DNA of 32,677 bases. Origin: a virus. A model generated the notes under the pieces. It was not told where the DNA came from. It did not search any database and saw only the letters and a program-made list of their open reading frames with translations. Below, one piece after another: positions 3,020 to 24,985 of this stretch; the first letter of the stretch is position 1, and each line of letters begins with the position of its first letter. Made by a program: the position numbers and the translations under genes. The stretch covers positions 1 through 32,677 of the IMG/VR virus record IMGVR_UViG_3300006802_000298, one strand, 5' to 3'.

Positions 3020-4795
3020 TTAACCTATGTGATTAGCATACTGAGTTGCAAACTCTTTAACATATTTATACTTCTCAATAGGTATAATATTATGCTTTCT
3101 AATAAAGTGTGATATCTCAGCCAAGAACTCAGACTTTAGATTTGCTGCATAACCATCTAAAACACCAATAACTTGTTGGTCTGATACCCAAATGCGTGGC
3201 TCATCTTGTTGAGCAAGCCATTTAAGAGCATCAAGGTCAATGTTGTTATTGCCGTGGTCACCCAATCTATCAATAGCATTGTCATCATATTTACCCTTGT
3301 CAGCAATGACACGAATATCTCCGTGATATTTGCCCATACCACCTGCGTAACCTGTATAACCAGCGATAGTAGAAGCTGGTAGTAATCTAATTACTTCTCT
3401 AACTTCATCTCTACCCCAACCCATAGAGCCACTAAAGTCAATCATTACAGAGCCACCTGCAATTTTCTTTCTTCGTGTAAATACTTTCTTGTCAGTAAGT
3501 ATTCTATGGATATTTCTAGGTTTAATACCTGCATCACTAAGTTGTCTGTGTAGCTTTTCTTCAGCTACCTTATCCCTTCTATTAGGAACAAACTTGTGAA
3601 ACTTAGCTTTACCATGATGTCCACCTTCATCTTTCTTGTAGTCAATCTTATTACCAATATTTCTTTGGAAGTTTGTATTGGCTTCTTCAATGATTTTGTT
3701 TGCTAGTTCTTCACTAACAAACCTAGGTAGCACTTCACTTGCTTTGACATCAGCATCTTTAACATTTCTTTCACTAATGACACCATTGTAAGATATATTG
3801 AACTTGGTATATATATCTTCATCATCTACTTTCTCAACCATATCATTAGTTGTTGGTGTACCTTGTGATATATTAAGATACTTCTCATCTTGTCTCTTGT
3901 GGATAAAGTCTCTAGTCTCTAAGTAAGTTGGTAAAGATAGATGTCTAATCATATCTTTAAGATTTTTAGGACTAAGTTTCCTACTTCTCTTACGATGTAA
4001 GACACTCCTAGCTTTTCTAATCATGCCATACATAGCTTGTAAGTCAGCACCAATATAGAGATAGTCATTGTATAACTCCCACTTGGTAGCCATAGGATTT
4101 TCTAGTGCAATAGCTTGATACAAAGCCATTTGTGTTAAGTCTCTCCTATCATACTTATCCCACTCTAAGTCATTACTACCTTGAACTACACTTAACATTT
4201 CATCAAAGTATTCAACTTCACCTTTACCTAGTGTGTAATTAGTTATATCTGACAATGGCGTAAAGTCATAGTAATACCACCTAGTACCAATTTGTATATC
4301 GTAGTTTGCTACTGTTTCCATAAGCAAACGATATATCTTTTCAGGTGTAGCGCTCTTGTTGTAGTACGCTTGCACTATTGAATTAATCATACGCTTTATC
4401 TTAAAGACACTTACACTAGGCACTAAGTCAGAATTTAAATCTGTAGTAACAGACCTAAGTGTGTTACTACGCCTAGCATTTCTAAGCCAAGTATCTGCTT
4501 GATAACCTGAAGCATATCTCTCTGCAACAGGAATACTTGTTTCTTTATCAAGTGGACTAACATTTCTGTATGTCTTTTTAGGAAACATTTTCTGTTGAGC
4601 TAAAGCAATTAGCTTTTCTCTCCTAGCATTATCCTCGTTACTGCTATCAACTATTGGAATAGCACCTGATTGTAGCTGAGGTTTCACACCTTTAGCATCA
4701 GATACTTTTGTATATCTCTTTCCAGTAGATTGTAAAGCAAGGTTAGGGAACTGTTGTCCTTTGCTACGAGCTTTACCTCTCTTTACAAACAGCAT
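3020..4795 (-). CDS. VWA-domain protein, CobT-like partner of the adjacent AAA+ ATPase
   Basis: This is a 591-residue protein. The first roughly 430 residues are Lys/Arg-rich and mostly helical and carry no motif I recognise. The C-terminal part (about 445-591) is a von Willebrand A fold: VMIDFSGSMGWG gives a MIDAS metal site D453-x-S455-x-S457, followed by a Rossmann-like pattern ending in PRIWVSDQQVIG. The combination of a MoxR/CobS-like ATPase with a VWA protein directly downstream (one-base TAATG overlap) is the standard arrangement of metal-chelatase-like or MoxR-VWA remodelling pairs. CobT is the cobaltochelatase member. No cobalamin pathway gene is nearby, so a protein-remodelling role during infection is likelier than vitamin B12 synthesis. 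It is the last gene before the terminator at 2964. Confidence 0.78.
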   Translation of the reverse strand: MLFVKRGKARSKGQQFPNLALQSTGKRYTKVSDAKGVKPQLQSGAIPIVDSSNEDNARREKLIALAQQKMFPKKTYRNVSPLDKETSIPVAERYASGYQADTWLRNARRSNTLRSVTTDLNSDLVPSVSVFKIKRMINSIVQAYYNKSATPEKIYRLLMETVANYDIQIGTRWYYYDFTPLSDITNYTLGKGEVEYFDEMLSVVQGSNDLEWDKYDRRDLTQMALYQAIALENPMATKWELYNDYLYIGADLQAMYGMIRKARSVLHRKRSRKLSPKNLKDMIRHLSLPTYLETRDFIHKRQDEKYLNISQGTPTTNDMVEKVDDEDIYTKFNISYNGVISERNVKDADVKASEVLPRFVSEELANKIIEEANTNFQRNIGNKIDYKKDEGGHHGKAKFHKFVPNRRDKVAEEKLHRQLSDAGIKPRNIHRILTDKKVFTRRKKIAGGSVMIDFSGSMGWGRDEVREVIRLLPASTIAGYTGYAGGMGKYHGDIRVIADKGKYDDNAIDRLGDHGNNNIDLDALKWLAQQDEPRIWVSDQQVIGVLDGYAANLKSEFLAEISHFIRKHNIIPIEKYKYVKEFATQYANHIG

Positions 4796-5490
4796 TATTC
4801 TGTGTCATCTGCGTGTGAAACTACCAAAGCATCAGCAATCTCATCGTAGTTGTCAGGGAATATTGTTTGTAATGCGTAGTCCAATGGAACTTCTTTGTCC
4901 ATTAGTTGACCTAGTGCTACCCACTTACGAACTGAGAAGTCGCCATCATTGTAATCTGCATATACTGCACGCAGTTTCTCAGGCAAACTCTCTAGTGCTT
5001 TAGGGTGTACTTTGTCAATGTTTATCCTTACAGGAAATCTATCAAGTAAGGCTTCTGGTAAGTCCTCTGGAACTCCGTTCATAGTTGCAACTACTTGGAA
5101 GTTAGGTTGTGGTCTTACCTGTTCTTTGTTCTTGTTAGGCAAAGTAAACTTTGCAAACTCAGGGTCATCTAGTAAGGCATGCAGAAATGATTGCACATCT
5201 ACACCAGCGTGGTCAATCTCGTTAATAACAAGTCTTGCACCATCTTTCCAAGCTTGAATACCGACACCATCTAGCCAATCCATACCACCTTCTTCATTGA
5301 GTATGTAATGACCTAGCACTTCACTAGCACTACTATCTTGTGTCAATGTAATATTGTATGTTTCTCTACCCTCTAATTTGGTTGTGTTTGCTTGGTATGT
5401 TTTACCAGTACCCGGTTTACCATAGAGCAATACTCTTGGTGTAGCACCAATAATTGCATCAAACAGTTTCCAACAGTTACTCTCTGTCAT
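4795..5490 (-). CDS. AAA+ ATPase of the MoxR/CobS type
   Basis: This 231-residue protein has Walker A GKPGTGKT (24-31), Walker B LVINEID (87-93), a sensor-1-like region ATMNG (135-139) and an arginine-finger-like ALLDRF (147-152). The 'LPEALLDRFP' block and short length are typical of MoxR/CobS ATPases, which form rings and use ATP to remodel a partner held by a VWA protein. The partner here is the next gene, whose start overlaps this stop. A ribosome site (GAGGAGGAATAAACA) precedes the ATG and is encoded in the end of the upstream gene. CobS-like genes have been noted in several marine phages. The annotation 'cobaltochelatase subunit' should not be taken literally without a biosynthetic context. 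Confidence 0.87.
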   Translation of the reverse strand: MTESNCWKLFDAIIGATPRVLLYGKPGTGKTYQANTTKLEGRETYNITLTQDSSASEVLGHYILNEEGGMDWLDGVGIQAWKDGARLVINEIDHAGVDVQSFLHALLDDPEFAKFTLPNKNKEQVRPQPNFQVVATMNGVPEDLPEALLDRFPVRINIDKVHPKALESLPEKLRAVYADYNDGDFSVRKWVALGQLMDKEVPLDYALQTIFPDNYDEIADALVVSHADDTE

Positions 5491-7973: not shown

Positions 7974-8098
7974 ATAGCTCGATACCTACACTTTCAATAC
8001 ACAAACAGGGACTTAAAATGTTTTACTAATGTAGGTATCAAGCTACCTACAAGGCAGGGAGAAAGGAGACACATTAGCTTAATGTCATAGACCTGCCC
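7974..8098 (-). ncRNA. Candidate structured leader RNA with competing hairpins
   Basis: Several inverted repeats crowd a gap between genes. TGTAGGTA (8030-8037) pairs perfectly with TACCTACA (8044-8051) around 6 nt. The same left arm, extended to 8046, can instead pair with 7974-7990 at 16 of 17 positions. GGCAGG (8053-8058) pairs with CCTGCC (8092-8097) and encloses ACATTA-GCT-TAATGT (8072-8086). The arms at 8030-8046 are mutually exclusive, as in switch-like leaders. It lies just upstream of the ribosome site of the 51-residue zinc ribbon. No known riboswitch class is recognised. Confidence 0.45.
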
Positions 8099-8113
8099 GT
8101 AGATAGCTTTATT

Positions 8114-8227
8114 TTATGGGATAAACTTTAAATCAAAGTTATTCTTTATTCTATTCTTTATAGTATCTTTATTCTTTTTCCAATATAGATACGCTTTATA
8201 TTGCTTATGTTCTTTATTAACAGCCAT
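8114..8227 (-). CDS. 37-residue basic protein
   Basis: The frame begins MAVNKEHKQYKAYLYWKKN and continues with KDTIKNRIKNNFDLKFIP. It is rich in Lys and Tyr and helical. The start overlaps the stop of the small zinc-ribbon frame upstream (TAATG), and GAAAGGAAG lies 5-13 bases before, within that gene. No family is recognised. Tiny basic proteins of this kind often bind nucleic acid, but nothing specific can be shown here. Confidence 0.5.
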   Translation of the reverse strand: MAVNKEHKQYKAYLYWKKNKDTIKNRIKNNFDLKFIP

Positions 8228-8355
8228 TACACAACTTCCTTTCTACAATCGTTGCACTTACGATAGCCTTTGCTTACGAACTCAATGGGCAGAATAATAA
8301 AACACTGAATACATTGGGGCTTCTGCCTCAATGATAATGTAATCGTATCTGTCAT
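8227..8355 (-). CDS. 42-residue zinc ribbon overlapping the previous gene in another frame
   Basis: From an ATG at 8355 the frame gives MTDTITLSLRQKPQCIQCF, then LPIEFVSKGYRKCNDCRKE. C15-x2-C18 and C34-x2-C37 are separated by the spacing and 'LP-EF' phrase seen in many short phage zinc ribbons of the form 'K-C-x-x-C-x-x-x-L-P-x-x-x-F ... C-x-x-C'. That pattern makes it real despite sharing 74 bases with the end of the 8722-8282 gene in a different frame. The start is uncertain: an in-frame ATG at 8373 is also possible and neither has a strong ribosome site. Its stop is coupled to the next gene (TAATG). Confidence 0.6.
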   Translation of the reverse strand: MTDTITLSLRQKPQCIQCFIILPIEFVSKGYRKCNDCRKEVV

Positions 8356-8722
8356 TGGGTTTCCATTGACCATCTCTAACATCATCTTTGTCAAGATGAA
8401 CTTCATAGATACAAGCATCATCACAATCACAGTTCTTGATATGTTGCTCTCTAGCTTCTGTATCATCAACAGTCTTGATGACTTTACTTGCATCTTTGTT
8501 ACAAAGCGAACACACTTTGCGACCAACCTTTGTAGTAGCTTGACAGAAACGACAAGTCCATAGGTACTTATCACCATCTTCTACTGCAATAGTAGGCTCT
8601 CTACTGCCTGATAAATCAGGCACTCTAGTATCTATTACAACAGGTACATCATTTAGTTTGTCGTAACCAACTAGAGTTCTCTTGGTTTTAGGAACACTTG
8701 AGTTCCTATATCTTTTACTCAT
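8282..8722 (-). CDS. Zinc-ribbon protein, 146 residues
   Basis: The N-terminal third is basic and disordered (MSKRYRNSSVPKTKRTLVGY). Then come WTCRFCQATTKVGRKVCSLCNKD (C57, C60, C71, C74), a compact four-cysteine zinc ribbon, and NCDCDDAC (about 97-102), which may add a second site. The C-terminal region is beta-like (CIYEVHLD; YDYIIIEAEAP). Start ATG has AAAGGA 9 bases upstream, and a promoter region with ATGCATA repeats lies 27-43 bases beyond. Its final 74 bases are shared with the 42-residue zinc ribbon. The function is unknown. Confidence 0.68.
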   Translation of the reverse strand: MSKRYRNSSVPKTKRTLVGYDKLNDVPVVIDTRVPDLSGSREPTIAVEDGDKYLWTCRFCQATTKVGRKVCSLCNKDASKVIKTVDDTEAREQHIKNCDCDDACIYEVHLDKDDVRDGQWKPNDRYDYIIIEAEAPMYSVFYYSAH

Positions 8723-9038
8723 CTGTATATCCTTTCTCTATATACGATATGCATAAAAATGCATAAAGCCGAAAATTTTTGGGCTTGGAATTATTTTGCG
8801 ACTTTGAAATTTTTTTGCGATTTTGCTTATGTTAATAGAATGACTTGACATTTTCGTATATCTTGATGCAGTGTGTGTTGCATAGAATACTAGAATATTT
8901 TTTTTTGTTTACTATGCATATAGATTGTTTAGTTAGGTTTTGATTATTAGGGTATCAGTTTGTGGTATGAGACAACTGTTCCTGTATCAGACCATCGTTA
9001 GAATAATCTTGTGATGGGATGTTAACACGAATGGTGGT

Positions 9039-9058
9039 GGGTGGGTGTCGGGGGTGGG
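9039..9058 (+). other. Canonical G-quadruplex motif
   Basis: Four G-runs (9039-9041, 9043-9045, 9050-9054, 9056-9058) are separated by loops of 1, 4 and 1 bases, satisfying the G3+N1-7 pattern on the plus strand. It stands in a noncoding gap of an AT-rich genome, downstream (leftward) of the gene 9370-9119. Folding would occur in plus-strand DNA or RNA; leftward transcripts would carry the C-rich complement. Confidence 0.6.
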
Positions 9059-9078
9059 CGACAAATTTTTTTATGTAG

Positions 9079-9104
9079 AAGTGTGAACTAAGGGGGAAGT
9101 CCAC
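9079..9104 (-). terminator. Hairpin after the 83-residue gene (weak terminator)
   Basis: GTGTGAACT and AGTCCACAC form a 9-position stem with one A-C mismatch around an 8-nt loop, 15 bases beyond the leftward stop at 9119. Leftward it is followed by TTCTACATAAAAAAATTTG rather than a U-run, so termination would be inefficient or factor-dependent. Confidence 0.4.
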
Positions 9105-9118
9105 ACAACTACAATTAT

Positions 9119-9370
9119 TTATACTGTACTGAAGTCGGGCATTTTATCTACGATTTGGATTAGTTCTGCTAGGTCATTGTTTACACTAGCTGATATTCCT
9201 TTCCACTGTAGATGGTTAGGCTCTAAGTGTACATTTTCGTTTGAAAGAGATTGTACTTTATCATTAATCTCTTTGAGTGTACCTGTGATTGTGTAATCAC
9301 TTTGGATTTCTCTATATGGGAACAAGTCTGTACCCATATCTTTTAGTACTGTGAATGTTATTACTATCAT
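9119..9370 (-). CDS. Hypothetical protein, 83 residues
   Basis: The start was placed at the ATG at 9370 (MIVITFTVLKDMGTDLF) because AGAAAGGAAACT precedes it and two hairpins lie further upstream; a longer frame reaching 9478 would run through those hairpins and into the neighbouring gene. The fold is probably beta-beta-alpha: FTVLKD, then DYTITGTLKEINDKVQSL, then LAELIQIVDKMPDF. Its family is not recognised. It is the second gene of the leftward transcript starting near 9881. Confidence 0.55.
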   Translation of the reverse strand: MIVITFTVLKDMGTDLFPYREIQSDYTITGTLKEINDKVQSLSNENVHLEPNHLQWKGISASVNNDLAELIQIVDKMPDFSTV

Positions 9371-9382
9371 AGTTTCCTTTCT

Positions 9383-9420
9383 GTTCGCCATAGCGAACAA
9401 GCGCGTGCCGAAGCACGCGC
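9383..9420 (-). other. Tandem intercistronic hairpins, one with a UUCG tetraloop
   Basis: Read leftward, GCGCGTGC-TTCG-GCACGCGC (9420-9401) is an 8-bp GC-rich stem with a C(UUCG)G tetraloop, the most stable loop type. Two bases on, GTTCGC-TATG-GCGAAC (9398-9383) forms a second stem ending 4 bases before the AGAAAGGA ribosome site. No U-run follows. They probably separate expression of the genes at 9854 and 9370 by blocking RNA decay or causing partial termination. Confidence 0.7.
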
Positions 9421-9434
9421 TCGATTTGAATAAG

Positions 9435-9854
9435 TTACTTTCTACGATATGTAGATTTAGCTTTACCTTGCTTTGCACTCCAAGAGTTCATTGTCTCTTT
9501 GATTTCTGCAAGAGTGCGAACTTTACCTTTGGTTACTTTGTTTATCTTGTCTGTACCAAGTAAGTCAAGTAGTGCTTTAGGTAGTTGTCCTTTAGCAGTT
9601 AACTTGAACTCGCCTTTCTTTAAGATAGTAGGGCAATTATCAAGTATATCCATAAACTGCATAATAGCTGGATAGCTACCTGAAGGTATTTGTTGTAATG
9701 TGGAAGGATTAGCCATACCATTAGTTTGTTGTGCTATATGATATGTATATTTACCTGTTTTGGTATCTACTAATTTTACTCCACAAAATGGACTACCAAA
9801 AAATGATTGTCCCATATAATATTTAGGTTGTTTAACCCAAGTATCTGTACTCAT
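9435..9854 (-). CDS. Hypothetical protein, 139 residues, basic C-terminus
   Basis: This is the first gene of the leftward transcript. The N-terminal half is beta-rich (YYMGQSFFGSPFCGVKLVD; GKYTYHIAQQ). A middle helix PAIMQFMDILDNCPTILKKG follows, then a Lys/Arg-rich end (SAKQGKAKSTYRRK) that may bind nucleic acid. No family is recognised. The start ATG has GAAAGGATAAATAAT before it and follows a well-spaced promoter at 9888-9916. As the promoter-proximal product of the leftward operon it is probably made early and in quantity. Confidence 0.62.
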   Translation of the reverse strand: MSTDTWVKQPKYYMGQSFFGSPFCGVKLVDTKTGKYTYHIAQQTNGMANPSTLQQIPSGSYPAIMQFMDILDNCPTILKKGEFKLTAKGQLPKALLDLLGTDKINKVTKGKVRTLAEIKETMNSWSAKQGKAKSTYRRK

Positions 9855-9887
9855 ATTATTTATCCTTTCTCTATGAATAGCTTATAC

Positions 9888-9916
9888 TTTATAACCCAAT
9901 GTGAAATGAGTTACAA
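9888..9916 (-). promoter_or_regulatory. Leftward promoter
   Basis: On the minus strand TTGTAA (9916-9911) and TATAAA (9893-9888) are separated by 17 bases, the ideal spacing for a main-sigma promoter. Transcription would begin near 9881 and give a leader of about 27 nt carrying the AAAGGA site of the gene at 9854. Confidence 0.6.
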
Positions 9917-10283
9917 AAAAACTGAGTAAGCGTGCTTTTTTAAAGTGTCAAATTTGTTTTGTATCCTATGTCGTAGCTTGAGTGGAAAAATACACAAGGA
10001 ATTTCCGAAGGAAAGGAAGGTGCTATTTTTATAAGGGAAAGCACAGACTATTGCAGAATAAATTTTATGCTTTACGAAAAGTATGCTAGAACGAAATTGG
10101 AACTCTTTTCTTATCGGCACTAGGAATTAAATTATTGAAAGAGTTATGCCGATTACAATAAAGCTAGGAAAGACAAAGGGTGGTGGGTGGGAATAGATGC
10201 GTTCGGCAGTTGATATTTTAATGGGGGGTAAGTTATGCCGAACTACTTAAGGGTTTGTATCGTTTTAATGCAAGGGCGTGTGT

Positions 10284-10312
10284 TTGTAAGACAAAATACG
10301 ACATACTATAAC
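10284..10312 (+). promoter_or_regulatory. Rightward promoter inside the noncoding region
   Basis: TTGTAA (10284-10289), 17 bases, TATAAC (10307-10312). The -35 element and spacing match those of the leftward promoter at 9916-9888. No gene follows for about 570 bases, so it would produce a noncoding RNA or a long leader. Confidence 0.45.
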
Positions 10313-10487
10313 TATAACCACTTAGAACTACCCAATACGCAGTCAATCTGCGTGTTGCTATAAACTATTAACAAGGTGGAAGTTTGAGCTAGTGACAACA
10401 GTTCACAGCGAGTGTTAATGTGGGTGGGGGGTGTGTCTATTATGTAACATCTCCAATAATTACTGGCAATTTCTTCTACATAAAAAA

Positions 10488-10585
10488 AGGTAGCTAGTTA
10501 ATCCTATAAGTGTTTAAGAAACTCTATTGCTAGAGTAAGTTACAGGTTACAGTGAGAAAACATCCCATAAGTTAACTAACTACCT
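10488..10585. ncRNA. Candidate structured RNA or origin stem, 98 nt
   Basis: AGGTAGCTAGTTAA (10488-10501) is complementary to 10572-10585 at 13 of 14 positions. Inside, ACTCTA-TTGC-TAGAGT (10521-10536) is a perfect 6-bp hairpin and GTTACAG is repeated in tandem (10539-10552). The result is a closed multi-armed shape, but the arm sizes do not fit a tRNA. It lies downstream of the rightward promoter at 10284. Confidence 0.45.
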
Positions 10586-10739
10586 AATGTAGTATTTTAG
10601 CACACTTACAGTAAAAAAAGAAGTTATAAAACTCTTTTTTCTATAGTACGCATATGGGGGGTGGTTTCGGGCAGTAGCGGACATATATGCTACGCATATT
10701 ATTGAAGCTGAGTTAATAATTTTCTAGTGTCCTTGGGTA

Positions 10740-10788
10740 CTGACTTTGTGGTAATCCCAGTCCATCTTGGTAGATGCAGTCAGCTTTT
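10740..10788 (+). terminator. Possible terminator before the rightward operon promoter
   Basis: CTGACT (10740-10745) pairs with AGTCAG (10778-10783), which is followed by CTTTTT. The enclosed loop is long (32 nt) and contains a CCA/TGG mini-stem. An outer GGTAC/GTACC pair (10736-10740, 10793-10797) is an alternative. It would end transcripts from 10284 about 50 bases before the next promoter. The stem is short, so this is weak evidence. Confidence 0.35.
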
Positions 10789-10837
10789 TGCCGTACCGAT
10801 AGCTCTTACCTGTAACACTGTAGTCATTAAAAACTAT

Positions 10838-10864
10838 TTGTTAAATTCACTATAGTGCTATAAT
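10838..10864 (+). promoter_or_regulatory. Rightward operon promoter with palindromic operator
   Basis: TTGTTA (10838-10843), a 15-base spacer and TGC-TATAAT (extended -10; TATAAT at 10859-10864). The spacer contains the perfect palindrome CACTATAGTG (10849-10858), well placed as a repressor site. Transcription would begin near 10871, just before the GGAGG site of the nuclease gene. Confidence 0.65.
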
Positions 10865-10891
10865 AATTTTATTCAAGTTACAGGAGGATAA

Positions 10892-11422
10892 ATGTTTGAT
10901 TTTGAAGAACAGCTAGCTGTCGGTAAGAAGGGTGAACAGTTAGTTAAATATTATTATGAATCCCAACTAGATGAGGGTAAGACTAAGTTTATCGTAAGGG
11001 ATGCTAAAGAAGAAGAACAGAAAAAAGGGGCAGACTTATTTATAATTAACAATGAACTTGGTCTTAGGTATGTAGAAGTAAAAACTGACACCAGGGCGGA
11101 GGAGACAGGGAATGTAGCACTAGAAGTACAAGTTGTGTATGGGGATACAGATAAGCGTATTGGATGTGCATTAAAAACATTCCCTGACTTTCTCTTCTAC
11201 TGGATATACCCAACCAACGAACTTCTTTACTGGAATCCTGATGAGCTAGTTCCATACATTATGGACTGGCTAATAGAAAGTAAATACAGGATAGTAAATG
11301 CAGAAAATAAAAATTTTTTTTCACGCTCTTTGATAGTGCCTATAGAAGACTTACGAGCAACCGGGGTCATACACTCGATAAGCGTAAGTTATCATCTTTT
11401 AGAAAAAGTGGAGACAAGCTAG
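10892..11422 (+). CDS. PD-(D/E)XK-type nuclease
   Basis: In this 176-residue protein, the N-terminal helix QLAVGKKGEQLVKYYY carries Glu15. It is followed by GADLFI (D48) and RYVEVKTDT (E62-x-K64), the core Asp...Glu-x-Lys set of restriction-endonuclease-like enzymes. The next phrase, 'T-GN-ALEVQ' (about 72-80), is shared with small phage nucleases of this fold that I recall as 'ELKTD...TGN.F.E'. Such enzymes cut DNA during recombination, repair or genome processing. The start ATG has a strong CAGGAGGATAA site and its own promoter at 10838-10864. It leads the rightward operon that ends in terminase and portal, so a DNA-packaging or resolvase role is plausible but unproven. Confidence 0.75.
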   Translation: MFDFEEQLAVGKKGEQLVKYYYESQLDEGKTKFIVRDAKEEEQKKGADLFIINNELGLRYVEVKTDTRAEETGNVALEVQVVYGDTDKRIGCALKTFPDFLFYWIYPTNELLYWNPDELVPYIMDWLIESKYRIVNAENKNFFSRSLIVPIEDLRATGVIHSISVSYHLLEKVETS

Positions 11423-16108: not shown

Positions 16109-16406
16109 AAGAAGATATATTTCAGAGTCTTATGGTGACAGTCAAGAGTTATCAGAACAACAAAATGCTGCTGAAATGTTTGCACAAGAAGAACAAAGGT
16201 TAGCACCACAACCTGTAGCACCGCCTAGAGTAGATGCTTTACCTTTGAATAGACCAACAGAAAGACCATTTGAATCTGTTACAGCTAATAACTTAAATCA
16301 ATTTGGTACTGGGTTACAAATGGATAGAAACTTTCTACTAAGTCAAATGTATGCAGTTCTACCTAGCTCAGACATATTAGCTTTAATGGATGATGGAGTT
16401 AGTTAA
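16092..16406 (+). CDS. Small hypothetical protein, Gln/Pro-rich
   Basis: The protein has 104 residues from ATG 16092 (MARQAKRRYISESYGDSQEL), selected because GGAGAAG precedes it; the frame continues further upstream without such a signal. The middle is low-complexity and Pro/Gln-rich (EEQRLAPQPVAPPRVDALPL). The C-terminal third is helical (MDRNFLLSQMYAVLPSSDIL). The stop overlaps the start of the giant gene by one base (TAATG, with GGAG before it). It is probably a virion linker or chaperone for the giant protein; this comes from context only. Confidence 0.6.
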   Translation: MARQAKRRYISESYGDSQELSEQQNAAEMFAQEEQRLAPQPVAPPRVDALPLNRPTERPFESVTANNLNQFGTGLQMDRNFLLSQMYAVLPSSDILALMDDGVS

Positions 16407-19400
16407 TGGCATGGGAGTGGGGTTTTACATCACCATATCAAGATGCTCTTGATACGGAATTTGTCAGACAAAGAAAACAACAAGCACAAGAATTAAGAAA
16501 TTACTTTGCTAATAATGAAATAGCACAAAATCTAGTAGGTATTGCTAATGAATATGGCTTCTTACCTACTGATGTTCAAGTAGCAGGTGCTATGGTTGGT
16601 CTTACTAAAGACAGTCCTGAGTTTACATCTATTGTTAATTCCTACTTAGACAAAGAAAGAAGTTGGTGGGAAAGCATTAAGGCATCAGGTAGAGGTGCAA
16701 TCAGAGGTGCATTTGTTGGTATGGAATCTGCTAGCCAGTTTGTAAAACGATTTGGTACAGCAGGTATGAGATATTACTCAAAGAAACAACAAAACCCATT
16801 GTTATTCTTTTCAGGCATAGGTACTGCACTAGCAGTAATTAATCCTGATTACCATACAGAATTAAAAAATGTTATGGAAGAAACAGGACCTACACTTGCG
16901 GGTAGAGCATTTGAAGAGATTAGAAAAGGTAATAAAGTTAATTTAGGTGAAGGTTACTTTGGAAATTCTACAATAGCAGAAGATACAGATGTATATAAAG
17001 AATTAGTTGGTAGAGGTGCTAATCCTGATGAAGTTAGAGAAGCTTTACAAGAACAATTAGGTAAGCCATTATCACAACCAACAATACAAGATAGAGAAGC
17101 TGCTGCACTTAGTTATCAAGGTAGAAAAGGCACAGTTAAGTTATCTCCTGGTCGTGTAGCTGCAGTAGAAATATTTGAACCTGGAAGTAGAGCATTTAAA
17201 TTTATGTCAGGTGTTATTGATGGTGCATATACTATATTTACAGACCCTACAACATATCTTGGTTTAGGTTTGTCTAGAGCTGGTAAAGCTGCTAGGACAT
17301 TTACACCTAACAATAAACCTGGTCTTATAAACAGAGCTGTTAGAGCTACAGTTAACCAACCTGCTGCTAGAGAATTTTATCAATCACAAGTAGGTATTGA
17401 TATTGCAGAAATGTTTTCTAAAGCAAACACATATGACCAAATAGATGTTCTTACTAAAGGTCAGCTAAGAAATTTACCTGATGGTGCAAGTATTGGTAAA
17501 AGACTTAGAGATACTGACAATGTATCAGAGATACAAGAAATACTTATAAACACAACTAAAGATAACTTAAGATTTCAAAATAGATTAGATGCAAACTCTT
17601 TAGTGTTTAAAGGTAAAGTATCTAGAGCTGCTGCTAAAGCATACTATGGTGGTGAATTTGCTGCTGGTGGTTTTAAGACAGCAATGAAACTAAACAATGC
17701 AGATAGCAAATGGGGTAGGTTATTTCAACAATTCCCTGCACCAAAACTAAATGCTAATGATTTAAATACAACTTTTTTTGAATTAAAAGACTGGATGCGT
17801 TTTGCAAAAGTAGATGATGAGGTTGCATTTAAAGCATTAGATAGAATAGCAGATGCTATTGATGATGATGATTTATTAAAAATGGCAGATATGCCTTTAG
17901 ACCCTACACAACAGTTTGACCCAAGACCTGCAAACCTAGCTAAGTTAACATTAGTATTAGATGTTCTTGGTGGTGATGATGGTGTGTTTACACACATAGC
18001 AACAAAGTTTGATGCTTTAGATTTACCACCTGAACTTAGTAAAGGTATTAGAAAGTTTATGGGTGCTGTTGATGAAACTAGAAAATACTTTAGAACTAAT
18101 TTATCAGAAGAGTTTTGGCAAGGACAAAAGCTTGACATTATAGATAGTCAAGGTAATGCAATACTGTCACAACAGTTTGAATTAGAAAAAGCATTAGAGA
18201 TTATAGAGAGAGTAGCTGAGAGAGCTGGTGTTAAAAAAGTAGAAGTAGGTGGTAGAAGAAGATTAATCAGAGATGCTAGGACAAACTTAGAAAAGTTTAT
18301 AGATGATGCACCTGGCACAGGAACTATTATTAAAGGTGGTGCAAGAACTGCAGATGATGGATTTGAAGTATCTACTGCAGGTGATGATTTTGGTAAACAG
18401 TTCTCAGCACTTAATGCTAAGTTTGCAGATGGAGATACTGTAGAACTTAAGTGGGCTAAAGCTAAAGGTTACTCAACTATTAAGGCTGCAAAAAACCAAC
18501 CTATGGTAGATGCTCAAGGTAGACCTATAGAAAATTTTGAACAATATTACGAAGAGTATTTAAAAATATGGAATGCATGGGCTGATGAAAACCCTGACCT
18601 TATACAAGAGTTAGCTGTCAAAGCTCAAGGTAAAACATTAACAGATAAGTTTGCTAAAACAGATAACAATCAAGCTAGAGCATTAGCTGAAATTATAAAT
18701 AAACGATTTGGTAAAGGAAACATTAATGACATAAGAGCAGAAGGTAATCCTATACCTATGAACTTTAAAGTACCTAAAAGAGGTACACCATTTGCTAATA
18801 AAGACACAAACACTATGGAACTTATACTCCAAGGTAAGAGAACTTCTACTACAAGAACTCTTGCTGGCTATGGACAAAACGCTCCTGAAGTAGGACAGAT
18901 AAGATTATTTACAGACAAGAGTGGTAGAAAAGCTATGGTAAGAATTACCAAAGTAGAACTTGTAGATAAAGATTTATTTATTAATCCCGATAAAGAAGCT
19001 TTAGCTAGAGAGATTGCAAAGAAAGAAGGATATACCTTTGAGTATTATAAAGAAAGAGTTGCTAATAAAGTTGCTAAAGATAATTATGTTCGTGTTGAAT
19101 ATGAACTTGCAGGTCCAAACAATGTTATTAATGACTTAAAAGATGTAGCAAGTATGAATGCACTTAAAGATGATTTCTTAGAACAAGTAATGCCTGAAGC
19201 TACTATTGACAGACTTGACCCTGAGATGGAAGTCTTAGTAAAAGAACTTAACAGTGGTGGTCAAGAAGGTATAGACTTTTTAGGGTTACAAGTAGCAGAT
19301 GAATTAGGAATACCTACTGGTGGTGTTGGTATGCCTGGTCTTACACAAAAAACTTTAAAAGATGGTAGATACGATGGCAACGCAGGACAACTTCTTAAAT

Positions 19401-22400
19401 ACAATGTTCAAGATTCTATTGACTTAGCTATAGAAGAAACAAAAAATCAATTAGCTAAATTATCAGAAAAGATATTAAAGAATGCATCAGGTGGTAGATA
19501 TTTAGATTCCCCTAACATGGAAAAATATTTAAATACATCTGAGATAAAAAGATTTCAACAATTAACTAGAGATAGAGAAAAGTTAAGAGCTGAAGGTAAA
19601 GAGTTAAACAATACAGATTTAAATGATTTAAAAGCGTTAGATATTAAAAGGCGTGGTGGTTTAAAGAACTTTAAAAAAGGTGAAGATGCACAGAAAGCTA
19701 TTAATGATTACCTTACTACTGTCAAAGTCAAAGGTGGTACAGATTCTGTATTAGAAAGAACTTACAAATTAGAAGAATCAATATTGGCTTTACAAAATAA
19801 AATTAAACAAGCTAAAGAAAACTTATTAAAGAAGGGTGTGTTACCTGACAACCCTACAGATGAAGATATACAAAAAGTTTTAAAAAGTGCAGAGATTGCA
19901 GATACAGCATTACAAAAATTAAATGTAAAGCTAGAAGGTAAAAACTTTAGAGGACAAACTCAAGAAGGTAAGCGTATTAGGGAAAGGTCAGTACCAACTA
20001 AAGACCTTGAAGGATTATTAGACCCTGACAAAACAATACAAGAATCTATTGATGAATTACAGTTTACAAGAAAAGCTTTAGACTTTTTAACTAACAAATC
20101 AATTGTTTATAGAATAAAAGGTAAAGAAGATTTAGTAATTGTAAGATATACAAAAAACCAAACTGATAATGGCGTATCTCCTGAACTAAACACACCAAAA
20201 AATTTAAGAGACTTTTTGAAAAAAGAGTATGATTACACTACTCCAAAAACACTTACTGAAGAAGCTAAAAAACAACAAGGTAAAGTAACTGACCCTAAAA
20301 AACAAATACCATCAGAGAGAGCATTTGAATTTGAAAAATTAGAAATAGAAAGAGTTATTGATTATGATGATTTTAATATTCAAGGGTATAAAGATTATGT
20401 AAATGAAGGTGGAGAACTAATAGCTAACTTACAAATTAAATTAAATAAAACTAGAGAACAGTGGAATAAATTAGAAGCTATTAAAGGTTATCAAGGTAGA
20501 GATGCAGATAGGTATTTAGAATTAACAGAAGCTTTAAAAGAGTTAGAGCTTGGTGACTTAGGTGGTATAAAACCAAAGCCAAGTCATTACAGGATGAGAA
20601 CTATGGCTAATGTAGATAACACAGATGTAACCATAGTTGCATTTAGTAAAAATAATATTTTAAAAGATACAGGAACAGCTAAAACAATATTTTATGCATC
20701 AAGAGGTAAATGGCTAGGTGATGAGTGGAAGAAGTTAATACAAGACAATATAGACAAATATGATACTGGTGTGTTTGCTAGAAGTAATAACAAACCTCTT
20801 ATCCTTATTAACTTAGATAATCCACAGCTAACAGATGACTTTATTTTAGAAGCACAGAACTTTCTAAAAGGTAAGAAGGTTAATATTGCAGGACCAAGCT
20901 CTTATCAAAATAAAGAAGTATTAGAACAAGTATTAAGACCATTATTTCTTAGAAGTAAAACACCTTTAAAGAAAACTAAAAAAGGTGCAAAGATGATTGA
21001 CAATGCAAGAGTTACACCACAACAGATATTGAGTTTCTTTGAAGATAAAGTACAGAACTATGAAACTATGGAAAGAATTAGCTCTGAGCTGTTCAAGGAA
21101 GCTCAGATAGAGGACATAGCTAAGATTAAGGGAAGACCTACCGCACAGCTAATTGCAGAGTATCTAGGTACAGATGCTATACCAATGCCTGATGCAAGGT
21201 TGTTCTTGAGAGTATATTCTCCTGCTAGAGAGTTTTGGATGAGGGCTTCAGGTAAAGGTAAATTAATACCTAAGAGAATTGCAGGACTACAAGGTGATGA
21301 AATTATTGCATCAGAGTTTGAAAGAGAACTAGCTAAACCTGTTGCTAGATTATATGAACTAACAACTAAAGACCAAAAGAGTACAGCAGAAACTGCAGAA
21401 CTTATGGTTAGAAATGCTAGAAGAAGATTTAAATTAACTAAGAACGAAGAAGATAAAGTTGTTAGAGAACTTACTGCAGGTTATTTAAGTACTCTTGGTG
21501 ACTACTACATGAACAAAGCTTGGAAGCCAGCAATACTTCTTAGAGCTGCTTGGACATCTAGGGTTGTAGGTGAAGAACAGATTCGTATGTGGCAAGATAA
21601 CCTTGACAATGTATTTAGTCATCCACTATCTGCGTTTGCTTGGATTATGGGTAAGGATAAAAGAAGACTTGCACATAAGTTTAGAGGACATGATGAAGAT
21701 GATTTTGCAGAGAGATTAATTGCAAAAGGTGTGTATGACATTAAAGGTGACACTATAGGGGATAGTATTGCACATGGTGCTGCTATGACTAAGACACATG
21801 GTGGTGTGTTAGACCCAACTGTATTAACAAGAAAAGGTTCATTCTTAGAAGTAAATAAAACAGATGATGCTTTCTTTGGTGGTGGTGCAGCAGAGATTAT
21901 ACAGTTAGGTGATGACCCTATAGCTGCAGAGATAGCATTTAGACTTACAGGATTTAACGGAACATTTAGAGGTGAGTTAATCTCTATGAAGAGATTTACA
22001 CCTGGCATTGTGAAAAACAATCCTAATAAAATCTTTGTCTTTGGTGATAACTTGGCTAGAACAGGTAAAGCAGGTCAAGCTATAATAAGAGATGAGCCTA
22101 ATGTTATAGGTGTTCCTACAAAGATATCTCCTAGAAAGTTTTTTAGTGATGATAACTTTGATGAAGCAGTAGAAGCAATAGATGCAGCATTCCTAGAGAT
22201 AGATGAAGCAAGAGGTCTTGGTAAAGTAGTTGTATTACCTGAAGATGGTTTAGGTACAGGTCTTGCACAGCTAGAAGAAAAAGCTCCAAGAATAAATAAC
22301 TACTTACAAAGAAAACTTAAAGCATTAAAAGAAGAACAAACTGAAGCTGTATTAGAAGAAACAGTATCTGCAGAAGATGCTATACAAAGTATTAAAGATG

Positions 22401-24985
22401 ATTTTTGGGAGGGCGACCTAAGAGGTTGGAGAGAGTCTGTAACTTATGGTGCTGATGAAGTAGGTAAATATCAAAAGGTAAGAATGCTTACAGATAGAAA
22501 AGCTGCTGATGCATATATTGATAGCGTTGTTTCTAGAATACATTACAAGACTGGTGGACACTTTGATACCTATGAAGTATTTCCTGATGGAACAGAAACA
22601 TTATTACATAAATCTAATGGTGACTTTAAAGCTATATCAAGAAAGTCTCCTACAAGTCTTATTGAACACAGAATAACAAAACCTGGTGATGAAGAATTAA
22701 TTAGACATATTGCATTTGGTAAACAAATACAATCAACTAGAGACTTAATACCTAGAGGTAAGCCAGGTAAATTAAAACTAGGTGTTGATGCTGATGGTAA
22801 CCCTATTGAAATAACTTGGGGTAGAAACCAAACATTAGATGACCATAGAACTTATAAAGGTTATTTAAGAAAAATAGATGAGCAAAGAAAAATATTTGAT
22901 GAAGCTCATGTAATGAAGAAGTCTACCTACGATATGAATGCAGAAACAGTTAGTAAGTATGACCAAATCATAGAGAATATGTTTACTACTTTTATGGCTG
23001 TACCTACTAACAGATTATCTAGGTCATCTGCATTTAGACAGTATTACTGGAGATTCATAGAAGAAAATGGTGCATATTATAATGATGAATTAAAAAATCA
23101 AATTATAGGAATAGCAAAAGAACCTACATCTAAGTGGGTAAAGAACTCTGCAGGTACAGCAAAGATACTTAAGGGAACTAAACAAATAGCAGATGCTGAT
23201 TCTATATTAGGAATAGAAAACTTAAATGAGTTAGATGAAGCAGCTAAAGCTTATGCATTACACGAAACTAAAAGACTTCTATACGATTTAAATAAACGAC
23301 ATGTAGTCTCAGATATGTTAAGACTTGCATTCCCATTCGCAGAAGTTTATCAAGAGATTATAGGTACTTGGTCAAGATTAATTAACCAACAGAAAGCATT
23401 GTCTGCACGAAAGATACAGCGTGTAGTTCAAGGTGCTAGAGGTACAGGTGAAGAAGGAGAAGAAGGTTTCTTTCATACTGATGAGATGTCAGGAGAAGAA
23501 ATGTTTTTCTTTCCTGGTACTGAGTTACTAACTAGCTGGATGTTTGGAGAAGATGAAGATAGATTATTAACTAATCCTGTAACAGGAGACCCAATGGAAG
23601 CACCTGATGTAAGAGTTAAACTAGAAGGTTACTCATCATCACTTAACATGGTTGCAGGTAATCCTGTTCCTGGTTTAGGTCCTTTGGTTGCAATACCAGC
23701 AGCTAAGTTACTTCCTGATACAGAAATCATTGACAAGTTATTCTTTCCATATGGTAGAGAAGAAGGTTCTGCACTAAGTCCATATACATTCTTAGAGCAA
23801 ACAATACCTTCTTGGTTAAAGAAAGTATTAAGTATAGGCAACATTAGTTCTCCTGAAATAAAGAGAACATACGCTAATACATACAAAGATGTTCTTAGAA
23901 TGCTAGTTACTACTGGTTTGTTTGATGATTCTACTAAAGCTAAACAACAAGATGCTATGAGAAAAGCTGAAGAGATAGCTACAAAGATGACTTGGATTAG
24001 AGCTGCTGTTCAGTTCGCAGCACCTACAGGTGCAGTAGTTAGGTATGAAATAGAAACTACTCCTGGTGGTGCATTGTATTTAGACCCAGCAGAGTTTAGT
24101 GAAAGTGACCCTGATGGTTATTACTTTGGTATGTCTGTATTTGCAGATGCATATTATAGAATATTATCTAAATACAAAGGTGACCAGTTAGCTGCAACAA
24201 CAGAGTTTGTTAATCAGTTTGGTATTGACCCTACAGCATTGCTTACATCTAAATCAAAAGAAGTTCAGAAGCGTTCTTATACAGAAGTTGGTGGTAGGTT
24301 TACAAGACAGAACCAAGAAGTATTAGATAGATACCCTAACATTGGATACTATATATTCCCTGATAACCCATTAGATGAGTTTGATTTTAATTCTTGGGCA
24401 GATTCTTTTGCAGAAAGAGATAGAATAGAACTATCAGAAGATGAGTATGTAGCTGCAATTAGAAATGCACAAGGTAGATTAGCTTATGAATATCAGAGAA
24501 GATTATTGTTTGATACACCTGCATATGCAAATGTTCCTAGTCAAAACAAGTTTGAAATGCTAACTGCTATAAGACAAGCATTGATACAAGAGTATCCTGG
24601 TTATGGTGTAACCTCTACAGTCCCTACATCAATGGATGTTGCTTCAAAGATAAGAGAGTTTGAAGATATGATTGCACAAGATGGTAATACTAAAGTTAAA
24701 TTACCTGATGGTAGAAGTGTTGAACTAGCTAAACTACCTGCAGTAGAAGGTGCATTAGTTTATATGCAGGAAAGAAACAGGCTTTTGTCAGAAGCTAGAC
24801 TTGTTCTTGGAAGTAATGTATCATTACAGAGAGAACAACTGAGTGGAGCAAGAGCTAGATTAAGGCAACTATCTCAAGAGTTATTTGCCCAGTATCCTGA
24901 CTTTTACTATGTGTATCTAGATTTGTTTAAGTATGAAGTTGAAGAAGAGTTTACAGATACGACATTATACGGAGGTAACTCTTAA
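16406..24985 (+). CDS. Giant polyvalent internal-virion protein with ASCH, split SLOG and DUF7831-like domains
   Basis: This 2859-residue protein takes over a quarter of the window. Residues 1-780 are helical, virion-type sequence. Residues 785-902 form an ASCH (PUA-like) domain: FKVPKRGTPF, then M804-ELILQGKRTSTTR817. S950-GGQ953-EGID plus LGIPTGG (967-973) begin a YpsA/'molybdenum-carrier' SLOG fold. Its second half appears at 1395-1516: Y-R-x-R, NVDNTDVTIVAF, ILINLD, VNIAGPSS. About 385 Lys/Glu-rich residues separate the halves. Residues 1857-1972 match a small phage domain: MKRFTPGIVKNNPNKIFVFG, DNLA, EDGLGTGLAQL. The rest, including KPAILLRAAWTSRVVGEEQIR (about 1704) and FPFAEVYQEIIGTW (about 2310), resembles large ejection proteins of podoviruses. 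It is probably injected with DNA. Domain roles are inferred from families. Confidence 0.8.
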   Translation: MAWEWGFTSPYQDALDTEFVRQRKQQAQELRNYFANNEIAQNLVGIANEYGFLPTDVQVAGAMVGLTKDSPEFTSIVNSYLDKERSWWESIKASGRGAIRGAFVGMESASQFVKRFGTAGMRYYSKKQQNPLLFFSGIGTALAVINPDYHTELKNVMEETGPTLAGRAFEEIRKGNKVNLGEGYFGNSTIAEDTDVYKELVGRGANPDEVREALQEQLGKPLSQPTIQDREAAALSYQGRKGTVKLSPGRVAAVEIFEPGSRAFKFMSGVIDGAYTIFTDPTTYLGLGLSRAGKAARTFTPNNKPGLINRAVRATVNQPAAREFYQSQVGIDIAEMFSKANTYDQIDVLTKGQLRNLPDGASIGKRLRDTDNVSEIQEILINTTKDNLRFQNRLDANSLVFKGKVSRAAAKAYYGGEFAAGGFKTAMKLNNADSKWGRLFQQFPAPKLNANDLNTTFFELKDWMRFAKVDDEVAFKALDRIADAIDDDDLLKMADMPLDPTQQFDPRPANLAKLTLVLDVLGGDDGVFTHIATKFDALDLPPELSKGIRKFMGAVDETRKYFRTNLSEEFWQGQKLDIIDSQGNAILSQQFELEKALEIIERVAERAGVKKVEVGGRRRLIRDARTNLEKFIDDAPGTGTIIKGGARTADDGFEVSTAGDDFGKQFSALNAKFADGDTVELKWAKAKGYSTIKAAKNQPMVDAQGRPIENFEQYYEEYLKIWNAWADENPDLIQELAVKAQGKTLTDKFAKTDNNQARALAEIINKRFGKGNINDIRAEGNPIPMNFKVPKRGTPFANKDTNTMELILQGKRTSTTRTLAGYGQNAPEVGQIRLFTDKSGRKAMVRITKVELVDKDLFINPDKEALAREIAKKEGYTFEYYKERVANKVAKDNYVRVEYELAGPNNVINDLKDVASMNALKDDFLEQVMPEATIDRLDPEMEVLVKELNSGGQEGIDFLGLQVADELGIPTGGVGMPGLTQKTLKDGRYDGNAGQLLKYNVQDSIDLAIEETKNQLAKLSEKILKNASGGRYLDSPNMEKYLNTSEIKRFQQLTRDREKLRAEGKELNNTDLNDLKALDIKRRGGLKNFKKGEDAQKAINDYLTTVKVKGGTDSVLERTYKLEESILALQNKIKQAKENLLKKGVLPDNPTDEDIQKVLKSAEIADTALQKLNVKLEGKNFRGQTQEGKRIRERSVPTKDLEGLLDPDKTIQESIDELQFTRKALDFLTNKSIVYRIKGKEDLVIVRYTKNQTDNGVSPELNTPKNLRDFLKKEYDYTTPKTLTEEAKKQQGKVTDPKKQIPSERAFEFEKLEIERVIDYDDFNIQGYKDYVNEGGELIANLQIKLNKTREQWNKLEAIKGYQGRDADRYLELTEALKELELGDLGGIKPKPSHYRMRTMANVDNTDVTIVAFSKNNILKDTGTAKTIFYASRGKWLGDEWKKLIQDNIDKYDTGVFARSNNKPLILINLDNPQLTDDFILEAQNFLKGKKVNIAGPSSYQNKEVLEQVLRPLFLRSKTPLKKTKKGAKMIDNARVTPQQILSFFEDKVQNYETMERISSELFKEAQIEDIAKIKGRPTAQLIAEYLGTDAIPMPDARLFLRVYSPAREFWMRASGKGKLIPKRIAGLQGDEIIASEFERELAKPVARLYELTTKDQKSTAETAELMVRNARRRFKLTKNEEDKVVRELTAGYLSTLGDYYMNKAWKPAILLRAAWTSRVVGEEQIRMWQDNLDNVFSHPLSAFAWIMGKDKRRLAHKFRGHDEDDFAERLIAKGVYDIKGDTIGDSIAHGAAMTKTHGGVLDPTVLTRKGSFLEVNKTDDAFFGGGAAEIIQLGDDPIAAEIAFRLTGFNGTFRGELISMKRFTPGIVKNNPNKIFVFGDNLARTGKAGQAIIRDEPNVIGVPTKISPRKFFSDDNFDEAVEAIDAAFLEIDEARGLGKVVVLPEDGLGTGLAQLEEKAPRINNYLQRKLKALKEEQTEAVLEETVSAEDAIQSIKDDFWEGDLRGWRESVTYGADEVGKYQKVRMLTDRKAADAYIDSVVSRIHYKTGGHFDTYEVFPDGTETLLHKSNGDFKAISRKSPTSLIEHRITKPGDEELIRHIAFGKQIQSTRDLIPRGKPGKLKLGVDADGNPIEITWGRNQTLDDHRTYKGYLRKIDEQRKIFDEAHVMKKSTYDMNAETVSKYDQIIENMFTTFMAVPTNRLSRSSAFRQYYWRFIEENGAYYNDELKNQIIGIAKEPTSKWVKNSAGTAKILKGTKQIADADSILGIENLNELDEAAKAYALHETKRLLYDLNKRHVVSDMLRLAFPFAEVYQEIIGTWSRLINQQKALSARKIQRVVQGARGTGEEGEEGFFHTDEMSGEEMFFFPGTELLTSWMFGEDEDRLLTNPVTGDPMEAPDVRVKLEGYSSSLNMVAGNPVPGLGPLVAIPAAKLLPDTEIIDKLFFPYGREEGSALSPYTFLEQTIPSWLKKVLSIGNISSPEIKRTYANTYKDVLRMLVTTGLFDDSTKAKQQDAMRKAEEIATKMTWIRAAVQFAAPTGAVVRYEIETTPGGALYLDPAEFSESDPDGYYFGMSVFADAYYRILSKYKGDQLAATTEFVNQFGIDPTALLTSKSKEVQKRSYTEVGGRFTRQNQEVLDRYPNIGYYIFPDNPLDEFDFNSWADSFAERDRIELSEDEYVAAIRNAQGRLAYEYQRRLLFDTPAYANVPSQNKFEMLTAIRQALIQEYPGYGVTSTVPTSMDVASKIREFEDMIAQDGNTKVKLPDGRSVELAKLPAVEGALVYMQERNRLLSEARLVLGSNVSLQREQLSGARARLRQLSQELFAQYPDFYYVYLDLFKYEVEEEFTDTTLYGGNS

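Follow-up and report, generated by a model that had tools for sequence, protein, structure and literature searches.

The window analysed here is a 32,677-base fragment of the virus record IMGVR_UViG_3300006802_000298. Its intergenic region 9855-10891 (1,037 bases) has leftward genes on one side and a rightward block on the other. The leftward operon begins with a 139-aa gene (9435..9854, minus strand), for which no family was found, and the rightward block with a 176-aa gene (10892-11422, plus strand), followed later by TerL, portal and capsid. The 176-aa protein contains the pattern GADLFI..YVEVKTD and has a weak Pfam match to NOV_C (E 0.0015, below the cut-off), and may possibly be a PD-(D/E)XK-type nuclease. 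After the portal block, 16406-24985 is occupied by a single reading frame of 2,859 aa, with a counterpart of 2,016 aa at the same place in L169, a locus from another marine MAG. In the leftward operon, a MoxR/CobS-like AAA ATPase adjoins a large protein whose DxSGSMG motif is VWA-like (3020-5490), and both are also found in L169. These CobS-like and VWA genes hinted at membership in the Cobaviruses, which was rejected: TerL and portal are nearest to those of Streptomyces phages and the capsid to that of Mycobacterium phages, at 22-30% identity.

The first-pass annotation, made from the window alone, had placed a possible noncoding RNA gene at 10284-10797, and several of the features that it described are present. 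There are no ORFs of at least 60 aa in 10121-10891, consistent with the gene-free stretch that it reported. The 14-position inverted repeat (AGGTAGCTAGTTAA/TTAACTAACTACCT, 10487-10500/10574-10587) forms 13 of 14 pairs, and both the internal hairpin ACTCTA/TAGAGT (10523-10538) and the tandem GTTACAG (10539-10552) exist. The fold of 10320-10797 taken by itself is weakly unusual (z -1.9 on the plus strand, -3.3 on the minus strand), and z-scores of this kind, calculated from single sequences, did not tell the strands apart. Our conviction that an RNA is encoded here therefore rests on comparative evidence.

Searching with the protein of the 176-aa gene, we identified 80 marine viral loci, and the alignment of their upstream regions shows strongly conserved blocks alternating with variable stretches; in several stems the sequence is wholly replaced between clades, with complementarity retained. 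A scan with the motif GGGTACTNNNNTTGNGGTAATCCC returned 87 stretches with one match apiece. Besides the window, the motif is carried by about 130 loci, some of which overlap the same contigs, with 71 distinct core sequences. There is one copy of the RNA per phage record, and it was found in every relative examined whose region was readable. A homologue of the 176-aa gene lies nearby in 126 of 131 entries; this gene is missing near the RNA of L093, L101 and L143, and in L093-type phages another gene follows. The RNAs of these three loci are hybrid, with a left half resembling clade 2 and a right half resembling group 1, a sequence pattern that suggests modular exchange within the RNA.

In L169 and in L164, a divergent copy of the RNA lies directly before TerL. 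Moreover, we identified the RNA (E 1.5e-5 or better) in all 60 loci with upstream sequence among the distant loci found by a TerL-based scan (group T), whose TerL is 52% identical to that of the window. Here the core ends about 70-80 nt before TerL, at ~3412-3441 in loci whose TerL starts at 3501; in the window, 1.4 kb separates the RNA from TerL. The first leftward gene also differs between groups. Since the RNA persists whichever gene comes first on its left or right, it does not serve one neighbouring gene. Matches to the motif in cyanobacterial sequences (L160, L161, L162, L165) all fall in the same short reading frame, which looks like psbX, and lack the rest of the RNA, and were therefore discarded as chance matches.

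The best-conserved part of the element is a core domain of ~170 nt near the 5' end of the RNA (10661..10832, minus strand), supported by covariation and by the models R1 and R2 (window match 168.6 bits, and all of the group T loci just mentioned). The same models did not detect the RNA of clade 2, which is argued from its position, its promoter and its minus-leaning fold. The core has five helices, one of which crosses others. Comparison of real with permuted arms identified covarying helices at 10725/10820, 10489/10584, 10763/10776 and 10298/10593. In alignment A2 (32 sequences), 25 pairs are 97% paired and 13 of them change on both sides, with a covariation score of 0.445 against a shuffled mean of 0.125 (0/500). 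In alignment A5, which has 52 sequences of both groups and was built with a model containing neither helix H8 nor helix C, 90% of cells pair across 51 distinct sequences and 16 pairs have double changes; the score is 0.389 against 0.121 when shuffled (0/500), and slid versions reach at most 0.081. Compensatory changes above both shuffled and slid controls, as expected of a structured RNA, are therefore present. The first-pass annotation had proposed conservation of the stems and a covariance search as checks: the stems are indeed kept by compensating changes across relatives, and covariation exceeds its controls, but Rfam 15 gave no match.

Among the core helices, all read on the minus strand, H7 (10725-10730 with 10815-10820) closes the domain, pairs in 57% of sequences against 5% with permuted arms, occurs with 10 arm types and has double changes in five of its six pairs. 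H8 (10736-10739 with 10807-10810; span 10734..10812) gains two extra pairs only as G-U on the plus strand; its pair 10736/10810 is G-C in 42 sequences and A-U in nine, with none broken. S2 (10740-10744 with 10779-10783) has double changes in four of five pairs and 97% of cells paired, and the apical hairpin E (10763-10766 with 10773-10776) changes on both sides in all four pairs, its arms being widely variable with complementarity retained. Helix C (10678-10682 with 10793-10798) crosses H7 and H8, making the core pseudoknotted. One of its pairs is G-C in 30 sequences and A-U in 21 with none broken, and in group 1 the helix is Watson-Crick in 140/140 cells; its last pair is not formed in group T. 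Both H8 and helix C covary though absent from the model that aligned A5. An alternative helix S1 (GGG 10735-10737 with CCC 10756-10758) was rejected, being invariant in group 1 and absent in group T, which supports H8 instead. S2 forms part of what had been taken for a terminator at 10740-10788. This segment belongs to the conserved core fold, and relatives have CTTTC or CTTTT there, so that the U-run is not conserved.

Outside the core, the 14-position repeat corresponds to a long helix, H3 (10487..10587, minus strand), whose loop holds the internal hairpin and the tandem GTTACAG. Of 28 dereplicated relatives, 50% can form it, against 11% with permuted 3' arms, and its sequence differs between clades; it is confined to group 1 and, with other sequence, to clade 2, and was not seen in group T. 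Our first fold, based on the rough alignment A1, missed this helix because that part was misaligned. Within the loop, GTTACAGG (10539-10546) is complementary to CCTGTAAC (10809-10816), and both are invariant, which places this potential pairing beyond the reach of covariation. A long-range helix, H2 (10293-10304 with 10588-10599, minus strand; one mismatch in the window), pairs in 39% of sequences against 8% when permuted, and the arms ACTACAT, CTAGACA and AGGACA each have a matching complement. Three further hairpins are seen among the closest relatives of the window: H1 (10333..10357), which has compensating changes only there, and two recognized by eye in their alignment. These are GTTCGGCA/TGCCGAAC at 10201..10243, with counterparts GTTCACA/TGTGAAC in L074 and ATTCGC/GCGAAT in L015, and ATCGGCA/TGCCGAT at 10113..10153, with counterparts AACAGCA/TGCTGT in L074 and TGCGC/GCGCA in L060. 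The element is thus larger than 10284-10797: its right edge lies at least at 10832, and on the left compensating hairpins extend to ~10113 in these closest relatives. We also observed that plus-strand G-runs recur in the intergenic region (10179-10192, 10220-10229, 10421-10436, 10656-10664), the two right-hand ones being conserved in group 1.

Concerning the strand, the first-pass annotation had proposed rightward transcription from ~10319, driven by TTGTAA (10284-10289), a 17-base spacer and TATAAC (10307-10312). Both hexamers exist, but their role as a promoter is not supported: a consensus scan misses them, relatives do not keep them, and 10293-10304 is the arm of H2 that covaries with 10588-10599, a pairing that ties this region to the latter in several clades. 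AATACGACATACTATA at 10295-10310 resembles a T7-type promoter, with a full match once and other matches at chance level; a PF00940 search in 12 relatives gave no match, but neither did the control. The evidence favours instead a leftward transcript. A leftward promoter is predicted at 10849..10876 (minus strand), with -35 TTGAAT (10876-10871), N16 and -10 TATAGT (10854-10849), from which the RNA would start near 10842. Among 45 members drawn from both main groups, 34 have a minus-strand match to TTGnnn-N15..18-TAnAnT, against 4.7 in shuffles (sd 2.0), and in almost all of these the end of the -10 lies 29-35 nt upstream of the core. Clade 2 has a match in nine of 10 members. A clean match is absent from L044, L045, L047, L052, L054, L071, L102, L114 and L122, and several clades lack the promoter match. 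Overlapping this promoter is a divergent late promoter (10838..10864, plus strand; TTGTTA-N15-TATAAT, TGC before the -10), matched in 36 of 45 members.

The fold points the same way. By structure conservation index (RNAalifold), 11 of 12 clades favour the minus strand: five of six in group 1, all five in group T, and clade 2 as well. Core columns that are conserved but unpaired read U12 C4 A2 G1 on the plus strand and hence A12 G4 U2 C1 on the minus strand, and conserved loops of structured RNAs are typically A-rich. Read sequence by sequence, the interior imperfect pairs of H3 are 20 A-C to 1 G-U on the plus strand, the A-C becoming G-U wobbles on the minus strand, although these mismatch counts are not phylogenetically independent and the aligned columns of H3, partly misaligned, lean to G-U on the plus strand (17 vs 5). 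Further evidence against the minus strand comes from H1, some pairs of H2 and the outer H8, where G-U falls on the plus strand. The core helices are nearly all Watson-Crick, with G-U almost absent on either strand, and therefore their own wobble counts cannot decide. Overall, a noncoding RNA gene in this divergent control region is strongly supported by covariation, by the presence of the RNA in all relatives checked and by its independence of the flanking genes, and comparative sequence evidence makes both its identity as an RNA and its leftward strand very probable.

We then considered known systems. The window and 13 relatives gave no match at gathering score in Rfam 15, which includes GOLLD, ROOL, OLE, known riboswitches and ribozymes, and a permissive search of 9855-10891 gave weak matches only, far below gathering scores; nor did we find a description of this RNA in the open-access literature searched. 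We rate it as a new family among large structured phage RNAs. The put antiterminator RNAs of HK022-like phages are ~65-70 nt long, fold into two hairpins and occur twice per genome. Like them, the window RNA is structured and would follow closely on an early phage promoter and precede a long operon: it comes after the conserved leftward promoter, whose early timing is assumed, and before the leftward genes. It differs from them in being single-copy, several hundred nt long and pseudoknotted, the core alone having ~170 nt and five helices rather than forming a ~70-nt two-hairpin element. The prohead (packaging) RNA of phi29 is associated with the packaging ATPase. In our case the RNA adjoins TerL in group T only, this adjacency being lost in the window's own group, fold and size are different, and transcription is most likely away from TerL. 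ColE1 RNAII is a structured transcript of several hundred nt in a control region and is similar in these respects, but support for an origin or for replication is absent for the window RNA. GOLLD and ROOL, which form multimeric cages (PMC12286853), are also phage-encoded, hundreds of nt long and pseudoknotted; they lie near tRNA islands, whereas the window RNA is located at a divergent operon junction.

The best explanation in our view, to which we would give an even chance, is that this conserved pseudoknotted phage RNA is a leader, or a released 5' product, acting on the leftward operon. Several hundred nt long, the RNA would be transcribed leftward from the promoter at 10876-10849 and would either stay joined to this operon, which is probably early, as its 5' leader or be set free as a distinct 5' product. 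The genes that come next on the left share the direction of the RNA. Terminator scans of the window were negative and those of relatives gave few matches, and since no conserved intrinsic terminator follows the RNA, the transcript probably runs on into the operon; the simplest reading is then that the RNA is a leader and acts on the transcription complex or on the operon as a whole. In group T loci such as L205, L210, L213 and L222, long inverted repeats without a U-run lie between the core and the first leftward gene, and are possible RNase III or processing sites. The core would be complete ~180 nt after the start and would fold while leaving RNA polymerase. By analogy with put, the folded core might then alter the progress of that polymerase along the leftward operon, as an antitermination or attenuation control; this is the mechanism that we favour, though tentatively. 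As the leftward promoter is back to back with the late promoter, its use would bear on the early/late switch.

The same leftward transcript could instead be released as a large ornate RNA working in trans, as RNA or as an RNP particle, during infection, which is how GOLLD and ROOL appear to behave. Its size and pseudoknots would fit, as would its conservation irrespective of neighbouring genes and the arrangement of one well-conserved end with a clade-variable remainder, which is also that of GOLLD (PMC12286853). However, the RNA always heads an operon, no conserved intrinsic terminator would release it, and Rfam gives no match. We regard this possibility as somewhat doubtful in itself and nearly as likely as the leader reading. 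A leader sensing a ligand or a protein, i.e. a riboswitch or autoregulatory element for the first leftward genes, would agree with the 5' position and with the highly conserved unpaired A/G positions of the core, but is unlikely given that the first leftward gene varies between groups, that several hundred nt is large for such an element and that known riboswitches do not match.

The two remaining readings are more improbable still. If the RNA were encoded on the plus strand, in keeping with the direction given by the first-pass annotation, as a leader of the rightward late operon or as an RNA linked to packaging, this would account for the constant position before TerL in the 60 group T loci and for the G-U pairs of H8 and H1, yet the majority of strand tests lean to the minus strand, the late promoter lies after the RNA, and TerL is distant in the window and replaced by another following gene in L093-type phages; we consider this reading very unlikely. 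Hardly more credible is the primer RNA at a replication origin that the first-pass annotation had offered (a primer or pre-primer similar to RNAII of ColE1), or a folded single-stranded DNA element. Either would be compatible with a large folded element that lies between divergent genes, where the plus strand has G-runs, and the scarcity of G-U in the core helices would suit DNA. Nevertheless, the cumulative GC skew turns at ~8.5-9 kb, within the leftward genes (8000-9500) and away from the divergent junction, the repeat search gave no iteron array, and conserved promoter spacing and A-rich loops favour RNA.

As to the host, one Actinomycetota MAG contains a 58.3-kb contig (L170-L172; G013:C30) in which the RNA occurs twice, at a distance of 43.86 kb; this contig is probably the circularly permuted genome of a phage, with assembly having continued beyond one unit. 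A host-chromosomal RNA was rejected, as R2 gives no match in 41 other genomes of the order of this MAG. All genomes of that order are ~0.6-1.1 Mb, a size that fits Candidatus Actinomarinales (PMC7771536). With these observations, and with TerL, portal and capsid nearest to those of Streptomyces and Mycobacterium phages, the host is plausibly a marine actinobacterium, which we state provisionally since phage contigs may be binned wrongly.

These data indicate that a divergent phage intergenic region may carry an RNA pointing away from the adjoining late genes, and strand tests should therefore precede any functional reading. To our knowledge, phages have few large structured RNAs, and this one lies at a control point with a fold defined enough for direct testing. 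It might, if speculatively, represent a new class of phage RNAs, large and pseudoknotted, which either reprogram host RNA polymerase directly or act in trans as RNA machines, at the early/late junction of a widespread lineage of uncultured marine phages, possibly phages of Candidatus Actinomarinales.
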